DNA of 37,768 bases from a virus: positions 1 to 37,768 of the IMG/VR virus record IMGVR_UViG_3300005329_000018. One strand, written 5' to 3'. The position numbers and the translations under genes are program-made. The notes below the pieces were generated by a model. That model saw only the letters and a list, made by a program, of their open reading frames with translations. It was not told the DNA's origin and did no database searches. This document shows positions 2,117-16,433 of this stretch, piece after piece. Position 1 is the stretch's first letter. Each line of letters begins with the position of its first letter.

Positions 2117-2379
2117 TCAGTCTTTCTTTCGTGTTTCTTATGGGCAATGAAGTACAGAGAATTAATCTGTGCTCCCTTAACGATAAAGTAATGATCCTTG
2201 TAGGTATGAAGGCGGTAGACTTCGATGGTTACGGTCGTACCATCCGGAAGACGATCTGATCTAGAGTTGTGGATTGTTCCGTACACTAAGCCATTGACGA
2301 ACCTGAAGTTACGCAGCTCGGCTGTAGGGTTCTCCTCTGACCACTTCCTTTGACTCCATTGCTTGCGGTTCCCGGTCAT
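2113..2379 (-). CDS. Hypothetical protein, 88 aa
   Basis: An 88-aa basic protein starting MTGNRKQWSQRKWSEENP and ending in a Lys/Arg-rich tail. The middle (DGTTVTIEVYRLHTYKDHYF) reads as beta strands, so a small OB- or Sm-like barrel is possible but not shown. The start has a good GAGGAAG ribosome-binding site and lies inside the 3' end of the primase-helicase gene, overlapping it by 71 nt in another frame. The stop shares ATGA with ung. No function was recognised. Confidence 0.65.
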   Translation of the reverse strand: MTGNRKQWSQRKWSEENPTAELRNFRFVNGLVYGTIHNSRSDRLPDGTTVTIEVYRLHTYKDHYFIVKGAQINSLYFIAHKKHERKTE

Positions 2380-3913
2380 TTGCTGCTTCCTCTTTGAACG
2401 TGTAGGTATCTCGATCGAAGATCAAGCTACCCACGTTACCAGTGATACCAGGGTAACGACTAATGGGAATAGCCAAACGAATTGTGTTTCTCTCTACCGC
2501 ACTCTCGGACATCATGTCTCTGGTTGCATTGATTTGCAAATCACAGACCTTAGTTAACCAACGTGAGCCGCGTGTCTGACCTAGGTCATTGACGTGGCTC
2601 ACCATGATCAACGCGAAATCCAACTGCTTGACCATCATCTCCAATCGAGTGGAGAGGTAGTCAATTAGTTTTCTCTCGTCGTTACCGCCAAGAATTCCGC
2701 TAACAACCATACTGATGTGATCCACAAGAACATACCGACAACCACGGGCCGTAACGAGAAACCGAACAAGATCGAGGAAATCTCCGGGATCATCGCTCCC
2801 AAAGTGAGAATAAACATGCAGCCGGCCATCCACCTTAACCACGTTCTTGAGGGCACCAATGATTTCATCGCGGGGACGATCCGTCTGCGGTAGGTGGATC
2901 GGAACCCGCATCTCAATGCCAGCCAGAGCCTGAAGATGACGTTGCGGAGGTTCTTCGAGGAAGATTGATCCGACATTGTCGTTAGTCTCCTTCAAGATTT
3001 GATGTTCGATGAAGTGCATCAATTCAGTCTTACCCACCTTTTCCTGTGCGGTGATTAAGACTGTCTCACCTGTGCGTATTCCATAAGTGAAATCATTTAG
3101 TATCTTGAATGGATAAGGCAAACCAATCTTCTTGGGATTATCTAAGATCGTCTCGAACTCCGAGAAATCCGAGACGATGTCTTCGGGTAAATACTGCTTG
3201 GAATTCCACCACACCTTCTTCAGTTGTTCAGCTTCTCCAGCCACGAGGCAAGCATTTGCATCCTTGTGTCGAGTAAAGCGTACAACGAAGACTTTGTGGT
3301 AATCAAATAGGCTCGCGACGCTTCGGACAGCTTCGCGACCTGCTTGATCACCATCGAAGGCGAGGTAGATCCGTTCGAATGAATTGAGCCAATCATAATC
3401 CACAGTGCAATCCCGCTTGGCAGAAGAACTGCTTTGCACACTGACCACAGGATATTCACCGAGGACCTGATGAAGCGAAAGAGCATCTAGTTCTCCTTCT
3501 GTTATTGTCACGAAGCGTGACTGGCCGGCCGAGAATTTATCACGACCAAATAAACCGACCGGAGGATGATCCTTCTTGGTACGAAAGTCTTTCTTACTTA
3601 AATCCCTAATCTTAAATTCACCGTTAGGATATTTATAACCAATCTCTATGGGCTTACCATCTGTATCGATCTTGGTCTTAACATCGTAGAACGTCATCGT
3701 TTCCTTGGTGACTTCTCTCCAAGGTAAATACTCATAGGTATATTCCAAGTTATCCTCTTGTTTCTTATTTGGTAAATATAAATACTTACAACTAAAACAA
3801 TAACCGTGCCCGTCATCATAGAGGCAATAACCATCGCTACTAGGACAGACGGGACACGGTATGTGTCGTTGAACAATCTTAGACCCAGGGCGGGTCGGGC
3901 GGGTCGTATTCAT
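2309..3913 (-). CDS. T7 gp4-like DNA primase-helicase
   Basis: A 534-aa protein. The N-terminus has a zinc-binding domain with CPVC (C20, C23) and CFSC (C39, C42), spaced as in T7 gp4. A TOPRIM primase core follows, with TITEGELDAL (E139) and AFDGDQAGRE (D187, D189). The C-terminal RecA-like helicase has a Walker A loop EKVGKTE (K295, T296) after GIRTGETVLI, and a Walker B YVLVDHI (D398, H399) followed by NDERKLID, very close to T7 gp4. It would unwind DNA and make lagging-strand primers at the fork. It overlaps both neighbours. The partner DNA polymerase is not in the window. The upstream ribosome-binding site is weak, suggesting coupling to the gene before it. Confidence 0.93.
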   Translation of the reverse strand: MNTTRPTRPGSKIVQRHIPCPVCPSSDGYCLYDDGHGYCFSCKYLYLPNKKQEDNLEYTYEYLPWREVTKETMTFYDVKTKIDTDGKPIEIGYKYPNGEFKIRDLSKKDFRTKKDHPPVGLFGRDKFSAGQSRFVTITEGELDALSLHQVLGEYPVVSVQSSSSAKRDCTVDYDWLNSFERIYLAFDGDQAGREAVRSVASLFDYHKVFVVRFTRHKDANACLVAGEAEQLKKVWWNSKQYLPEDIVSDFSEFETILDNPKKIGLPYPFKILNDFTYGIRTGETVLITAQEKVGKTELMHFIEHQILKETNDNVGSIFLEEPPQRHLQALAGIEMRVPIHLPQTDRPRDEIIGALKNVVKVDGRLHVYSHFGSDDPGDFLDLVRFLVTARGCRYVLVDHISMVVSGILGGNDERKLIDYLSTRLEMMVKQLDFALIMVSHVNDLGQTRGSRWLTKVCDLQINATRDMMSESAVERNTIRLAIPISRYPGITGNVGSLIFDRDTYTFKEEAANDREPQAMESKEVVRGEPYSRAA

Positions 3914-6836: not shown

Positions 6837-6924
6837 TGGTGCCCACCGCCGGACTCGAACCGGCAAGACCGGAATGATCGAGGGATTTTAAGTCCCTTGC
6901 GTCTACCTATTCCGCCAGGTGGGC
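6837..6924 (-). tRNA. tRNA-Leu (anticodon UAA), CCA encoded
   Basis: The minus strand gives a complete class II tRNA of 88 nt: a perfect 7-bp acceptor stem (GCCCACC with GGTGGGC), discriminator A, and encoded CCA. The D arm is GCG/CGC around an AATAGGTAGA-type loop. The anticodon arm is AGGGA-CTTAAAA-TCCCT, with anticodon TAA. There is a long variable arm, and a T arm GCCGG-TTCGAGT-CCGGC. It resembles bacterial tRNA-Leu(UAA). Its first 18 nt are also the last six codons, including the stop, of the NYN gene. Confidence 0.96.
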
Positions 6925-9484: not shown

Positions 9485-9521
9485 AAAAAACCCCGCACTC
9501 CACAATCAAGTGGAGGCGGGG
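9485..9521 (-). terminator. Strong Rho-independent terminator
   Basis: On the minus strand CCCCGC and CTCCAC pair with GTGGAG and GCGGGG (12 bp with one bulged A) around a six-base loop, followed directly by TTTTTT. It ends the transcript of the 358-aa gene, whose stop is 20 nt upstream. Confidence 0.9.
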
Positions 9522-9540
9522 CTTGGGTAGTTGGGTAGGA

Positions 9541-10617
9541 TCAGGCGGCCGCTTTGGCAGTCTCGGTTCCCATCGTCAGGGCATCCACCTTGACTTTGAC
9601 GTCCTTGTGCTCAAGGATGAGCGAGAGAGCGTCATGCAGGTTGACCAAGGTCTTAACCCGGTCATCCGCACCATTCTCGCTGTAGTACGCGATCAGGGCG
9701 CGGAAGTCTTTCGCGTCCTTGCGGGCCGCTTCGAGGTAGTGCAGTTCCTTCGAGGTAGCCGTCTCGAAGGCAACGGGGCTGTTGACGTGGAATTCCGGCG
9801 GCGTCTCCGGCGGCTTCTCACGCTTGTTGGACGTGATGAAAGTGCCGTAGGTCTTGTCGCCGGCCAGCGTCTTGTCCACGCTGAGCCGCAGGAAGTTCGG
9901 GATTGAGAACAACATGGCTCGCGCCGCGTTGGTCGCATCCTGCACCATGATCAAACGCGGAGACTTGCGGTTGATTTCCGTCTCCGGCCTGCCGTCCTTG
10001 CCGATCACGGCCTTGCCATCGTTACCGATAACCGGGTTCGTGTCGTACCCCACCGTGACAGACGGGAGACGTTCGTGAACGTCGCGCATCTGGTGGTAGA
10101 GTTGGACGGCCATGCGCAGCTTGCCGTAGAACGTGGTGAACTTGCCATCCAAGTCCGCCTTGGCACGCTTGCGCTCGTGCTCCGGCATCGTCGAATATCT
10201 GTTCTTCACGTTCTCTTGCTGAGACTGCGAGACCATGCTGCGCTCATCGAGGATGAGCTTACCCACCGGGTGACGCTCGGCCACCACCCGCCAGAACGAT
10301 CCGTCGGTCTCACGACCTTCGGGGTTCTTGTAGCGGAAGAGATCGAACGGCTTGTTGCCGGTATGTCCCTCGATGCTACCCACTTCCGGCCACATGTCGA
10401 ACGACATCTCCTCGTGCTCGGCCATGTGTTCCATGAGCGAGAAGTGGATCGCGGCCGTGGAAAGCTGGTCCTCGAACTTCACCTCCACGGCGTGTTCGAA
10501 TTGCGCCGTGAGATCGGAAGACTGCGCGAGGAAGCTTGCAGCATTGCCCGCCTTGGCGGAAATCTGTGCAGCTTCGTTCGCGGTGAGGATGCGTTTCACT
10601 TCGAACTTGAGAGGCAT
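9541..10617 (-). CDS. Unknown GC-rich early protein, 358 aa
   Basis: A 358-aa protein with an Ala-rich start (MPLKFEVKRILTANEAAQIS), several helical stretches, and a central segment with a duplicated GNDGKAVIGKDGRPE-like turn. Then come FLRLSVDKTLAGDKTYGTFI and a C-terminal helical region ending TAKAAA. No membrane segment or nucleotide-binding motif is seen. The start follows the GGAGCACAC ribosome-binding site. A small hairpin with CATGGA/TCCATG arms (10638-10663) lies in the leader, and a strong terminator follows. Its base composition matches the 482-aa gene at 4805 rather than the right arm. It looks like an independently transcribed, well-expressed gene of unknown role. Confidence 0.75.
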   Translation of the reverse strand: MPLKFEVKRILTANEAAQISAKAGNAASFLAQSSDLTAQFEHAVEVKFEDQLSTAAIHFSLMEHMAEHEEMSFDMWPEVGSIEGHTGNKPFDLFRYKNPEGRETDGSFWRVVAERHPVGKLILDERSMVSQSQQENVKNRYSTMPEHERKRAKADLDGKFTTFYGKLRMAVQLYHQMRDVHERLPSVTVGYDTNPVIGNDGKAVIGKDGRPETEINRKSPRLIMVQDATNAARAMLFSIPNFLRLSVDKTLAGDKTYGTFITSNKREKPPETPPEFHVNSPVAFETATSKELHYLEAARKDAKDFRALIAYYSENGADDRVKTLVNLHDALSLILEHKDVKVKVDALTMGTETAKAAA

Positions 10618-11006: not shown

Positions 11007-11204
11007 TCACCGTGTCGTGAACGTGTAGCCATCCGCGTTCAGCTTAGCCTTGAAGGCTTCGCTCGCTGCGTGCCATGCCTTGTGAGCATGAGCGTAGGCT
11101 TCGCTCTCTGTGTTGAAGAACAGCGGCGTGACATACACGCCATCATCAAACAACACCACGGGTTGAAACGGACCCGTGCCTCTTGTCGTTGGGTAGAACA
11201 TCAT
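11007..11204 (-). CDS. Hypothetical protein, 65 aa
   Basis: A 65-aa protein beginning MMFYPTTRGTGPFQPVVLFD, with a strand-rich first half and a helix SEAYAHAHKAWHAASEAFKA in the second. I chose the tandem ATGATG at 11204 because AAAGGA lies eight bases upstream; the frame is open further, but earlier Met codons fall inside the inverted repeat region and lack a site. Arm B of the repeat ends about 20 nt upstream of the start, so any structure there could affect translation. Confidence 0.6.
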   Translation of the reverse strand: MMFYPTTRGTGPFQPVVLFDDGVYVTPLFFNTESEAYAHAHKAWHAASEAFKAKLNADGYTFTTR

Positions 11205-11224
11205 GTCTGCATCCTTTCCCATGC

Positions 11225-11249
11225 GGGTTAGGTGTAGACTGTGCATAAC
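11225..11249 (-). repeat. 25-bp inverted repeat, arm B
   Basis: Minus strand reads GTTATGCACAG, T, CT, A, CA, C, CTAACCC, the partner of arm A at 10730-10754. It abuts the next repeat (11250-11274) with no spare base, so the 45-bp gap between two gene units is built almost wholly of two repeat arms. Confidence 0.65.
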
Positions 11250-11274
11250 CTAGCTAGTGCCTTTGTCTGTCCCG
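11250..11274 (+). repeat. 25-bp inverted repeat, arm X
   Basis: Plus strand starts CTAGCTAGTG and ends CTGTCCCG. The reverse complement of 11614-11638 matches 21 of 25 positions, and all four differences are C/T transitions. Together with arm Y it encloses the 99-aa gene at 11295-11594. Confidence 0.6.
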
Positions 11275-11294: not shown

Positions 11295-11594
11295 TTACGC
11301 GGCCTTCGGGTTCTTGCCCAAGTATTCGTTGAGCAAGTTCTCGATTGCCACGTTCGACATGAACAGGCTCTTGCCCTCGTCTCGCACCATGACACCAGCC
11401 GTGGCATTGTAGGCCACGTCGTGCGTCATGTGCGCGGTATTCGAGAACACATTCATCAGCGCGTCGGCGACATGCTCGGCGTGCTTGGCATCGTAGCACT
11501 GCACCATTCCGCGCGTCACCTTGTGTGACCTCGGGATGTGAGTGTCCGGATCGCGCACCGAAAAGCGCGCGGTAACTTGAACGTTGTGGTCCAT
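11295..11594 (-). CDS. Hypothetical protein, 99 aa
   Basis: A 99-aa His-rich soluble protein: MDHNVQVTARFSVRDPDTHI, then helix-like CYDAKHAEHVADALMNVFSN and a C-terminal VAIENLLNEYLGKNPKAA. A GGAGATAGTCC ribosome-binding site supports the start. It is the most upstream gene of the leftward arm and is directly preceded by the putative structured RNA at 11640-11985, which could be its leader. It is enclosed by repeat arms X and Y. No family was recognised. Confidence 0.65.
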   Translation of the reverse strand: MDHNVQVTARFSVRDPDTHIPRSHKVTRGMVQCYDAKHAEHVADALMNVFSNTAHMTHDVAYNATAGVMVRDEGKSLFMSNVAIENLLNEYLGKNPKAA

Positions 11595-11613
11595 GGACTA
11601 TCTCCGTTGTTCG

Positions 11614-11638
11614 CGGGACAGGCAGGGACACTAGCTAG
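11614..11638 (-). repeat. 25-bp inverted repeat, arm Y
   Basis: Minus strand starts CTAGCTAGTG and ends CTGTCCCG, the partner of 11250-11274. It lies 20 nt upstream of the 99-aa gene's start codon, the same position relative to the gene as arm B has to the 65-aa gene. Confidence 0.6.
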
Positions 11639-11639
11639 T

Positions 11640-11985
11640 CTTGCTACGGACCGTCCACTATTCGGGAGGCGCGCCTATGTCTGTATCGCCGATGCAATCT
11701 GATCGTTGCCACGGTGGGGGCCATGACCAAAAGCTATGGTCAAGCTCGTTAACCCCATGCTTTCTCGAAGTCAGCGTCAACGCTTCGCTACTCAGGCTTT
11801 CGGCCCTTTCATCCTACGTCTTAGCCTTCGGAGATACCATGCCATCCGGCATGACTAACGGCTGTAGCCTTGCGGCTCGCGCCTTGCCCTTGGTATCCCG
11901 CCGGTGGGTTCGTCAAGAGAGGGAAGCCGCAGCTGCCCCGCAACCCATCCGGTATGCCCTTGTCCCATATCCCGATGGTTCCCTC
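11640..11985 (-). ncRNA. Putative structured RNA, family not recognised
   Basis: This GC-rich stretch has no convincing gene but many nested complementary arms: 11919-11925 with 11979-11985 (7 bp), 11965-11968 with 11975-11978, 11833-11839 with 11891-11897 (7 bp, enclosing two hairpins at 11840-11851 and 11860-11883), 11766-11770 with 11783-11787, and 11715-11719 with 11753-11757 around 11725-11729 with 11737-11741. One loop is GCAA (a GNRA tetraloop) only on the minus strand, which favours leftward transcription. It could be a stand-alone RNA or the leader of the leftward arm. It lacks group I intron core words, a group II domain V, and tmRNA or RNase P signatures. Confidence 0.42.
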
Positions 11986-11996
11986 AATCGAATAAT

Positions 11997-12033
11997 TGTA
12001 TCGTTTGTATCGTCCGTGTATCGTCTGTATCGT
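11997..12033 (+). repeat. Iteron-like array, four TGTATCGT copies
   Basis: Exact TGTATCGT copies start at 11997, 12006, 12017 and 12026, spaced 9, 11 and 9 bp, close to one helical turn each. A one-base variant (TGTATCGC) lies at 11682. Helically phased direct repeats next to AT-rich DNA, between the two divergent arms, are typical of initiator- or regulator-binding arrays. I cannot say whether this is an origin. Confidence 0.55.
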
Positions 12034-12284
12034 GTTACATAATTGTCACAGGTTATTTGTTGTGGCTTCTAGGTAACAGTGGTATCCATACAATATACAT
12101 AGTAAAGCATTATGTATTAGGTATACCAGTAGAAGCATAATCAATGCTCTATCAATCGTATTAATGGACTGTTATAACGTTACGAGGAGAGAGCCTAGAC
12201 GTTGTTCAATGGTAAAGGGGTACCAAGGGGGTTGGGGGGTCCAATCAGCCGCATGAATTACACCTAAAATTTATCGGACAATTT
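12034..12284. other. Gene-free AT-rich stretch with G-rich tract
   Basis: No gene is visible here. 12034-12180 is AT-rich. 12217-12239 carries three G runs (four, five and six bases) separated by TACCAA and TT, which might form a two-layer quadruplex on the plus strand. A weak AAAATT/AATTTT dyad follows the zinc-ribbon gene stop near 12270-12284. Confidence 0.4.
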
Positions 12285-12395
12285 TTATTCATCTTCAACA
12301 ATTCTATCTGAATTACAGTATTTACATCTAGTTGTATCTTCATTACCTGTAAATTGCTTCTCACAAGTATAACAATAATACCAAATAGCACTCAT
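12285..12395 (-). CDS. 36-aa zinc-ribbon miniprotein
   Basis: MSAIWYYCYTCEKQFTGNED followed by TTRCKYCNSDRIVEDE: two CxxC pairs 13 residues apart, a complete minimal zinc ribbon. GAGGT seven bases before the ATG is a good ribosome-binding site, and the start overlaps the upstream gene's stop as ATGA. The conserved ribbon and coupling make this a real gene despite its size. It is the last gene of a leftward mini-operon of four. A role in binding nucleic acid or a host factor is inference. Confidence 0.7.
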   Translation of the reverse strand: MSAIWYYCYTCEKQFTGNEDTTRCKYCNSDRIVEDE

Positions 12396-12505
12396 AGCCT
12401 ACACCTCAAAAATATCGAACATATTTTTCTTCTTTGTTCCAATGTGATGAAACGTCTATCTACCGTATTATTGATTAAATCATGAATATTGAATGTTTCT
12501 TCCAT
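12392..12505 (-). CDS. 37-aa hypothetical protein
   Basis: MEETFNIHDLINNTVDRRFI then TLEQRRKICSIFLRCRL. It is acidic at the N-terminus and basic at the C-terminus, probably all helical. A GGGAGG ribosome-binding site 12 bases upstream is somewhat far, and the 25-bp element 12524-12548 precedes it. The stop is coupled to the zinc-ribbon gene. No family was recognised. Confidence 0.5.
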   Translation of the reverse strand: MEETFNIHDLINNTVDRRFITLEQRRKICSIFLRCRL

Positions 12506-14549: not shown

Positions 14550-14866
14550 TGGAATCTGTTCACAATGTCTCTGCTGAAGTATACGTAATTGTAGCTGCTG
14601 TCTTAACAGGCGCATTTACTGTAGCAGGAACAACCTGGGGTCTTTCTTGGTCTCTCTCCAGACGCTTCTCTGAAATTAAGGGAGAACTCTTTCAACGTAT
14701 AGAGAAACTCCAAGATAACATCTTAGGTAAATTAGAATATCATGAACGCCACGATGACCGTCGATTCGGTGGACTACGAAACGATCTCTGGGAAATTAGA
14801 CTTCGAAACGCCGCGAAAGACGGCATCACGCTCAAAGACAGGCGTGAAGAAGAAACCTTCACGTAA
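14549..14866 (+). CDS. Membrane-anchored coiled-coil protein
   Basis: A 105-aa protein with one membrane helix at about residues 10-33 (VYVIVAAVLTGAFTVAGTTW) and a long helix after it (FSEIKGELFQRIEKLQDNIL, then Glu/Arg/His-rich). Its last 125 nt overlap the start of the terminase gene in another frame. The topology, short outside and long helical inside, recalls Rz-like or accessory lysis proteins, but it is far from the lysis block. Function open. Confidence 0.6.
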   Translation: MESVHNVSAEVYVIVAAVLTGAFTVAGTTWGLSWSLSRRFSEIKGELFQRIEKLQDNILGKLEYHERHDDRRFGGLRNDLWEIRLRNAAKDGITLKDRREEETFT

Positions 14867-16433
14867 TCTATCTGATGAACACCAGCAACGTAAGTTACTG
14901 GCAGAAGCAGATTTAGAAGAATTTATTAAGTGGGTTCACCCTAAACGTGTACTGGGGGGTATTCACAGAGAAGTAATTAGATGGTGGACACGCTCTGAAG
15001 CGAAGAACCATCAACTATTACTCCTTCCGCGCGACCACATGAAGTCTGCGCTAATCGCTTACCGAGTTGCTTGGGAACTAACTAGAGACCCTACGTTAAG
15101 AATATTGTTTATCTCCAGTACGTCCAACTTAGCCACCAAACAACTCAAGTTTATTAAAGACATCTTAACCTCCGACAACTACCGGGTCTTCTGGCCCGAG
15201 ATGGTAGAAAAAGAAGAAGCTAAACGTGAGAAGTGGACTGAACGCGAAATCTCAGTCGATCACCCTGAACGAAAAGCAGAAGCGATCCGAGATCCTTCTA
15301 TATTCACTGCTGGTCTTACTTCTAACATCGTTGGTCTGCATTGTGACATTAGCATTCTAGATGACGTCGTCGTATCTGGAAATGCCTACACCGAAGATGG
15401 TAGATCTAAAGTCAAAGATCAGTATTCTCTTCTGTCGTCCATCGAAACGGTAAACGCTAGAGAATGGGTAGTTGGTACGCGGTATCACCCCAAAGATTTA
15501 TATAACTCCATCACTGAGATGGAAATAGAAGAATATGATGAACTCGGAAATGTCTGTAAAACAACACCTCTCTTCGAAGTTTTCGGAGATGGTGAAGCGA
15601 GTAAAATCGCTGTGGAGTCCCTGGGAGACGGCACCGGCCAATTCCTGTGGCCTCGACAACAGCGTTCGGACGGTAAATGGTTCGGGTTCGACTCCCAAGT
15701 TCTGGCTCAAAAGAGAGCACAATACCTTAATAAGGTTCAATTCCGGGCGCAATATTATAACGATCCGCACGACATCGATTCCTCCGCAATCAAGAGAAAT
15801 CTCTTCCAATACTACGAAACTTCCCATCTCCACCGTAGAAATGGAAGATGGTTCTTCCAGAATGAAAGGTTGAATGTTGTCGCTGCAATTGACTTCGCTT
15901 ATTCTCTGGGCAAGCGGGCTGATTATACCTCTATTGTTGTGGTTGGTCTCGACGGACGTGGAAATTACTACATCCTCGACATCGATAGATTCAAAACAGA
16001 TCTAATGGCGGAATACTATAACCGTCTACTAAAACTCTATGAAAAGTGGGGGTTTTTAAAAGTAAGAGCTGAAGTCTCTGTCGCCCAACAAGTAATCGTA
16101 AGAGATCTTCGTGAGAACTACATTCGTCGTTACGGACTATCCCTCACAATCGATGAGTATCGTCCCTCTAGATGGCAGGGATCTAAGGACGAGCGTATAC
16201 AAGCAGTTCTAGAGCCACGGTATTATAATCGACAGATTTGGCACTACCCCGGGGGTAATTGTCAGTCTCTAGAAGAAGAACTAATCTTCACCAATCCACC
16301 TCATGATGACATCAAAGATGCCCTCGCTTCCGCAATCGACTTTGCAGTCCCTCCTCTAGATATATTCAAACTAAAGAAAGACAGTGAACCCCATAACTTC
16401 AGCTTCCACAGTAAGTTTGGTGGTACAACATAA
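14742..16433 (+). CDS. terL: Terminase large subunit
   Basis: A 563-aa packaging motor. ATPase domain: an atypical Walker A in LLLLPRDHMKSALIAY (K101, S102) and Walker B ILDDVV (D207, D208), with a coupling motif LFISSTSN between them. RNase H-like nuclease domain: AAIDFAYSLGKRADYTS (D384), VRAEVS (E444) and HDDIKDALASA (D522/D523, D526). It cuts concatemers and pumps DNA through the portal. The start is either Met1 (14742) or Met5 (14754); both lie inside the preceding gene and lack a good ribosome-binding site, so translation is probably coupled. The stop overlaps the portal start (TAATG). Confidence 0.93.
   Translation: MNATMTVDSVDYETISGKLDFETPRKTASRSKTGVKKKPSRNLSDEHQQRKLLAEADLEEFIKWVHPKRVLGGIHREVIRWWTRSEAKNHQLLLLPRDHMKSALIAYRVAWELTRDPTLRILFISSTSNLATKQLKFIKDILTSDNYRVFWPEMVEKEEAKREKWTEREISVDHPERKAEAIRDPSIFTAGLTSNIVGLHCDISILDDVVVSGNAYTEDGRSKVKDQYSLLSSIETVNAREWVVGTRYHPKDLYNSITEMEIEEYDELGNVCKTTPLFEVFGDGEASKIAVESLGDGTGQFLWPRQQRSDGKWFGFDSQVLAQKRAQYLNKVQFRAQYYNDPHDIDSSAIKRNLFQYYETSHLHRRNGRWFFQNERLNVVAAIDFAYSLGKRADYTSIVVVGLDGRGNYYILDIDRFKTDLMAEYYNRLLKLYEKWGFLKVRAEVSVAQQVIVRDLRENYIRRYGLSLTIDEYRPSRWQGSKDERIQAVLEPRYYNRQIWHYPGGNCQSLEEELIFTNPPHDDIKDALASAIDFAVPPLDIFKLKKDSEPHNFSFHSKFGGTT

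Follow-up and report, generated by a model that had tools for sequence, protein, structure and literature searches.

A candidate folded leader element ahead of the leftward genes in a virus record related to SIO1-like podoviruses

Background

Does the gene-free DNA at the head of the leftward arm of a 37,768-nt virus record specify a structured RNA and, if so, how much of it is structured and what could it do? The whole record was analysed (referred to here as the window), and the region under study covers positions 11640-11985 (346 nt), which the initial annotation had described as a GC-rich candidate structured RNA with many nested stems. The window was placed near the SIO1-like podoviruses on the basis of its terminase (14742-16433) and its minus-strand primase-helicase (2309-3913). 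SIO1 is reported to be without an RNA polymerase gene (PMC6775973), and early transcription would thus use the host polymerase; PF00940 gave no match in the 12 records searched, and neither did the search control. The accessible parts of the literature searched made no mention of early leader RNAs in these phages.

Results

Genomic setting and coding potential

The gene-free leader does lie at the head of the leftward arm, preceding the first leftward ORF (11295-11594, minus strand, 99 aa, no family match). The minus-strand gene at 9541-10617 encodes a 358-aa protein of a divergent family (alignment A1) which in relatives lies first on the leftward arm, with 15-21% identity to the member in the window. 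It is immediately followed by an intrinsic terminator (9485-9522, minus strand; CCCCGCCTCCAC..GTGGAGTGCGGGG then TTTTTT), read from the sequence and the fold and missed by the automated terminator scan, and an intrinsic terminator follows the same first conserved leftward gene in the relatives' loci L040, L043, L021 and L050. By eye, CTAGCTAGT precedes each of two small leftward genes that are neighbours (11626-11645 and 11245-11260), and a similar short stem, AACCC[GNNN]GGG, is seen in the window (11201-11240) and in the matching stretch of L067, where together with a ribosome-binding sequence it immediately precedes a small leftward gene.

No convincing gene was found within 11640-11985, in agreement with the initial annotation. 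A plus-strand ORF with a TTG start (11641-12042) is the one long frame, and neither tblastn against 50,697 phage records (E 0.1) nor Pfam gave it a match; no conserved reading frame was found across the region, and a coding function was rejected since no homologue was found. Comparison of the whole window with Rfam release 15 at the gathering score left the region without a match, the sole match being a minus-strand tRNA-Leu with anticodon TAA (6837-6924, matched at 6840-6924), while 11500-12300 gave none up to E 5 and ten of the relatives' loci gave none at the gathering score. A known RNA family was therefore rejected; the annotation, too, had recognised no intron, riboswitch, tmRNA or RNase P signature. 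Its contrast in composition was borne out in part: GC content is about 58% at 11501-12000 versus 35% at 12001-12500, but most of the left arm has 52-60% GC and the region equals the left-arm genes, so that the contrast marks the AT-rich neighbour rather than a special RNA.

Folding of the region

At least seven complementary arm pairs had been counted in the region, and while these stems exist, their number is within chance. With arms of 6 nt or more and a loop of up to 80 nt, seven were observed against a shuffled mean of 4.5 (sd 2.2), a count reached by 51/300 shuffles, and the three arms of at least 7 nt were matched in 38/300; 48 left-arm segments of the same length had a mean of 6.5 arms, with at least seven in 20 of them. 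The 346 nt as a whole had an MFE z of 0.41 on the minus strand (66/100 shuffles folding equally well) and 0.06 on the plus strand (48/100). When the minus strand was scanned in 100-nt segments, z fell below -2 at 11541-11640, 11801-11900, 11921-12020 and 12041-12140; the first of these is mostly coding, and within or edging the region only 11801-11900 (z -2.5) and 11921-12020 stand out (z about -2 over 11901-12020). The 100-nt segments inside 11601-11880 had z of about -0.6 to +1.4. A single 345-nt RNA was rejected, since folding is at chance level and 11640-11828 has z near 0 and is unlike any relative. The original observation was real yet overstated, and is partly confirmed: about 125 nt read leftward (11829-11952, minus strand) is supported, as the branched part of it beats shuffles and its layout recurs in L067. 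The rest of the gene-free leader up to the first leftward gene (11595-11828, minus strand) has no supported structure of its own and no similarity to relatives.

Two abutting domains are obtained when positions 11954 to 11825 are folded alone, namely a stem (stem A) and then a branched domain. Stem A (52 nt, 11901-11952, minus strand) was delimited from the sequence, alignment A3 with its pair count, the fold, and models R1 and R3. Its outer helix P1 has ten pairs and a bulged A (CCGG(A)UGGGUU / AACCCACCGG, 11952-11942 with 11910-11901), its inner helix P2 carries a UGCG cap (GGGG-C-AGC[UGCG]GCU-U-CCCU, 11939-11920), and between these lies an asymmetric internal loop with GC on the 5' side (11941-11940) and CUCUUGACG on the 3' side (11919-11911). 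On its own, stem A had a z of -1.5 (37/500 shuffles). Folding of the longer leader gave an MFE structure in which GAGGGAA pairs with UUCCCUC instead, so that stem A is not the sole stable fold.

The abutting branched domain (11829-11900, minus strand) is a 72-nt three-way junction, recognised by its z, its fold and the layout in L067. Such a domain had been noted from the sequence and is indeed present in the fold, with 11900-11892 pairing with 11838-11833 and 11831-11829 in the closing helix. Arm 1 (11877-11866) ends in a GCAA tetraloop (11873-11870), which, as annotated, is a GNRA loop on the minus strand alone, and arm 2 is AUGCC[GGAU]GGCAU (11852-11839). The segment 11826-11900 had a z of -3.36 on the minus strand (2/500 shuffles) and -2.53 on the plus strand (6/500), values which are optimistic because the limits were chosen after the scan. 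The domain reaches -32.1 kcal/mol on the minus strand versus -27.6 kcal/mol on the plus strand, and these energies, together with the minus-strand G-U pairs, favour the leftward direction.

A single homologue

Relatives were collected with the terminase of the window as query (80 loci) and with that of L067 (39 loci); seven duplicate loci and L001 were removed for the first comparison of relatives, and sixteen duplicates and L001 later, leaving 118 records. A counterpart of stem A was found in L067 only, which has a 17-mer in common with the window, about equally far from the element between the two gene arms. Around this 17-mer, P1 is UGGGUU/AACCCA in the window and AAGGGUU/AACCCUU in L067, and P2 is GGGG..CCCU and GGGACU[UACC]AGUCCU, respectively, while the internal loop is identical and a G-U pair is kept in both. 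In the alignment of the two sequences 24/25 cells are paired and two pairs are changed on both sides, and pairing falls to 40-68% when the partners are slid. This is not significant, as 122/500 shuffles reach an equal value, and the covariation between the two sequences is thus suggestive but not decisive.

A branched domain also adjoins the stem in L067; its GCCGGAUGGC hairpin is that of the window, whereas its closing helix differs, so that the two-part layout is kept at the corresponding place while the helices are largely different. With the flanks shuffled around the fixed shared 10-mer, an equally large domain arose in 38/2000 cases for the window and 3/2000 for L067, the domain ends having been chosen after folding. 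A DNA pattern search of 2.9 million viral contigs returned one contig, that of L067. Models R1 (run on 100 and 26 sources) and R3 (95 sources) found only the window and L067 besides weak matches (the best in L022, E 0.2); model R2 was run on 100 sources and 15 records. Three matches in genome_contigs, in unrelated MAGs, were judged by eye to be apparently due to chance, and queries with the neighbouring genes (11295-11594 and 9541-10617) gave no homologues in viral_contigs.

Two further candidate relationships of stem A were rejected. Both were suggested by a common CUUGAC stretch. Kinship with an element in other leaders (element B, below) was discarded because this motif is on opposite strands in the two, and kinship with an intergenic hairpin of L022 because the match had an E of 0.2 over 0.95 Mb; in that hairpin UCUUG is paired inside a 12-bp helix, and control 7-mers yield about one such context each on average, some as many as three.

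The DNA between the arms

The inter-arm element (12210-12293 in the window), defined by comparison of records, consists of G/C runs and TGAATTACACCTAAAA. It is present in 41/118 de-duplicated records, 33 of which have a leader of more than 150 nt, and its C/G runs are either CCCCCCGACCCCC or GGGGG..CCCCC (L041, L046, L078, L052, L042), beside AAATTT..GATATTTTTGAGGTGTAATTCA. In cobaviruses an ORF-free region between two gene modules is described as matching terminal repeats, with a conserved GC-rich end (PMC6775973), and by this analogy the inter-arm element and the AT-rich DNA probably form a genome end or terminal repeat. The contig ends of three 51-kb records overlap by 123, 127 and 90 bases, which we took as assembly joins. 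A proline-rich leader peptide from the inter-arm element was rejected, as neither start codon nor frame is kept across the 41 records. The element is adjoined by a 36-aa zinc-ribbon-like ORF (12285-12395, minus strand; Zn_ribbon_19, E 0.0017, below the curated cut-off), and the border between leader and AT-rich DNA carries four phased copies of a unit of about 9-11 bp (11997-12033; TGTATCGTY on the plus strand, RACGATACA on the minus strand), a possible operator or set of iterons.

Leaders and promoters in relatives

At the corresponding position, ahead of their first leftward gene, relatives also have a gene-free leader, in which other elements are conserved: element B in L022, L041 and L040, and element C in L026 and L086. 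In element B 88.9% of 54 cells are paired and three pairs are changed on both sides (40/500 shuffles as high), and alone it is no stabler than shuffles (z -0.55, -0.50 and -1.28). A 73-bp piece common to L022 and L046 at 94.5% had z of -2.9 and -2.7. Sigma70-like sites with a 17-nt spacer are found on the leftward strand immediately before B or C in L022, L041, L026 and L086 (TTGACN-17-TANNNT in the cases of L022, ahead of B, and L026, ahead of C). These are the top-scoring sites of their leaders, with only that of L022 beating 20/20 shuffles; in L040 a similar site was seen by eye and is not among the four best. Of 33 leaders scanned, four (L022, L050, L059, L117) had a site that beats all 20 shuffles, and L059 and L117 have a good promoter but a leader in which no folded element was recognised. 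The window leader had no leftward sigma70-like promoter above shuffles (best 8.8 versus a shuffled mean of 8.4 and maximum of 11.1), nor had the L067 leader, and the leader status of the element in the window is therefore drawn from position and analogy.

A stronger and unexpected by-product was an RNA element of two helices and an AGY..CG internal loop, located in the gap after the first leftward gene of four relatives, just before the start of the second gene (minus strand; L022:2763-2841, L086:589-668, L041:411-505, L046:2344-2440). It was recognised by covariation, with 10/15 pairs changed on both sides and 0/500 shuffles as high on a structure taken from one of the four sequences, which is stronger than anything in the window; a descriptor search did not find the element there.

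Discussion

We consider it about an even chance that 11829-11952 (minus strand) folds and acts in cis as part of the untranslated 5' leader of the leftward early mRNA. Its position, its gene-free state, its fold and a layout common to one relative are observed, and we infer its transcription, transcript start and function. Such an element would lie between the AT-rich inter-arm DNA, likely a genome-end repeat, and the first early gene, where its 5' stem, whose asymmetric loop is conserved, may stack on the branched domain and so, in cis, provide the early mRNA with a front end that is stable, processed or regulated. As its role, mRNA stabilisation or RNase processing would rank first, ahead of put-like modification of the host RNA polymerase, with translational control last. 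Speaking against a leader are the single homologue, the non-significant covariation and the chance-level folding of the whole region.

Among known systems, the early leader of T7 has an RNase III site before gene 0.3, in an irregular hairpin with an internal loop. As in T7, an irregular internal-loop hairpin of the window follows what is probably the left genome end and precedes the first early gene, but there is also a branched second domain, and the likeness, being drawn from layout, is putative. Antitermination at boxA/nut sites involves a boxA sequence (consensus CGCUCUUUAACA) bound by NusB/NusE and a boxB hairpin, and the window does have a CUCUU-rich unpaired stretch beside a hairpin; however, CUCUUGACG only partly resembles that consensus, departing from it, and sits inside a closed stem, and comparable hairpin contexts arise by chance with control 7-mers, over which its own is not clearly enriched. 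Putative resemblance to a third system, the put sites of HK022, bears on one of the alternatives below.

An ordinary GC-rich untranslated stretch with no function of its own, in which the 17 nt matched by L067 are left over from shared DNA or serve to bind a protein, would explain why the region-wide z is near 0, why the inverted repeats are within chance and why only two sequences have the match in common. It fits less well with colinear shared blocks amid largely different yet compatible helices and with a branched domain that folds above chance in the window, and we regard it as rather unlikely. The proximity of the phased 9-11 bp repeats, of AT-rich DNA and of an element resembling the terminal-repeat region of cobaviruses (PMC6775973) would suit hairpin-rich DNA for replication start or genome-end packaging, as would a branched domain that beats shuffles on both strands. 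That the minus-strand RNA is stabler and uses G-U pairs, and that the inter-arm element begins some 260 bp off, at 12210, and is common to phages with unrelated leaders, makes an element acting as DNA and not RNA the less probable reading, and we hold it to be unlikely.

The put-like role would be a special case of a leader, in which the nascent RNA binds the host RNA polymerase and allows read-through of the leftward-arm terminators without a protein factor; put RNA itself binds the beta' zinc-binding domain and counteracts termination. The putL site of HK022 is described (PMC9378689) as lying just downstream of PL and comprising about 70 nt with two stem-loops with bulges, and the window resembles it in having two adjacent folded domains, proposed to be near the start of an early transcript, in a phage probably dependent on host RNA polymerase. 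The strong intrinsic terminator behind gene 9541-10617, in the operon that the two domains precede, and those behind its counterparts in four relatives make such a role conceivable. Unlike putL, however, the window has a 52-nt stem and a 72-nt three-way junction, and no promoter was located in its leader; R3 found one copy, in a 37.8-kb record which may be a fragment, whereas HK022 has two similar copies (putL and putR). Furthermore, of the carriers of B or C, L022, L041 and L086 have no such terminator after the first gene, although L040 (B) has one. We judge put-like activity to be quite improbable. More speculative again is the idea that fast-evolving, unrelated folded leader RNAs, placed where the leftward early unit begins in T7-like phages without their own RNA polymerase, act put-like and directly on the elongating host polymerase to bring it through the left arm, with the RNA in the window representing a new class of RNA-only antiterminator.

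Conclusions

The cis-acting leader element at 11829-11952 would be a new candidate of a known kind, drawn from two sequences. If confirmed, it would be a folded leader RNA not described before, from soil phages related to the SIO1-like podoviruses, and gene-free starts of early units would be worth searching for cis-acting RNAs in phages which depend on the host polymerase.
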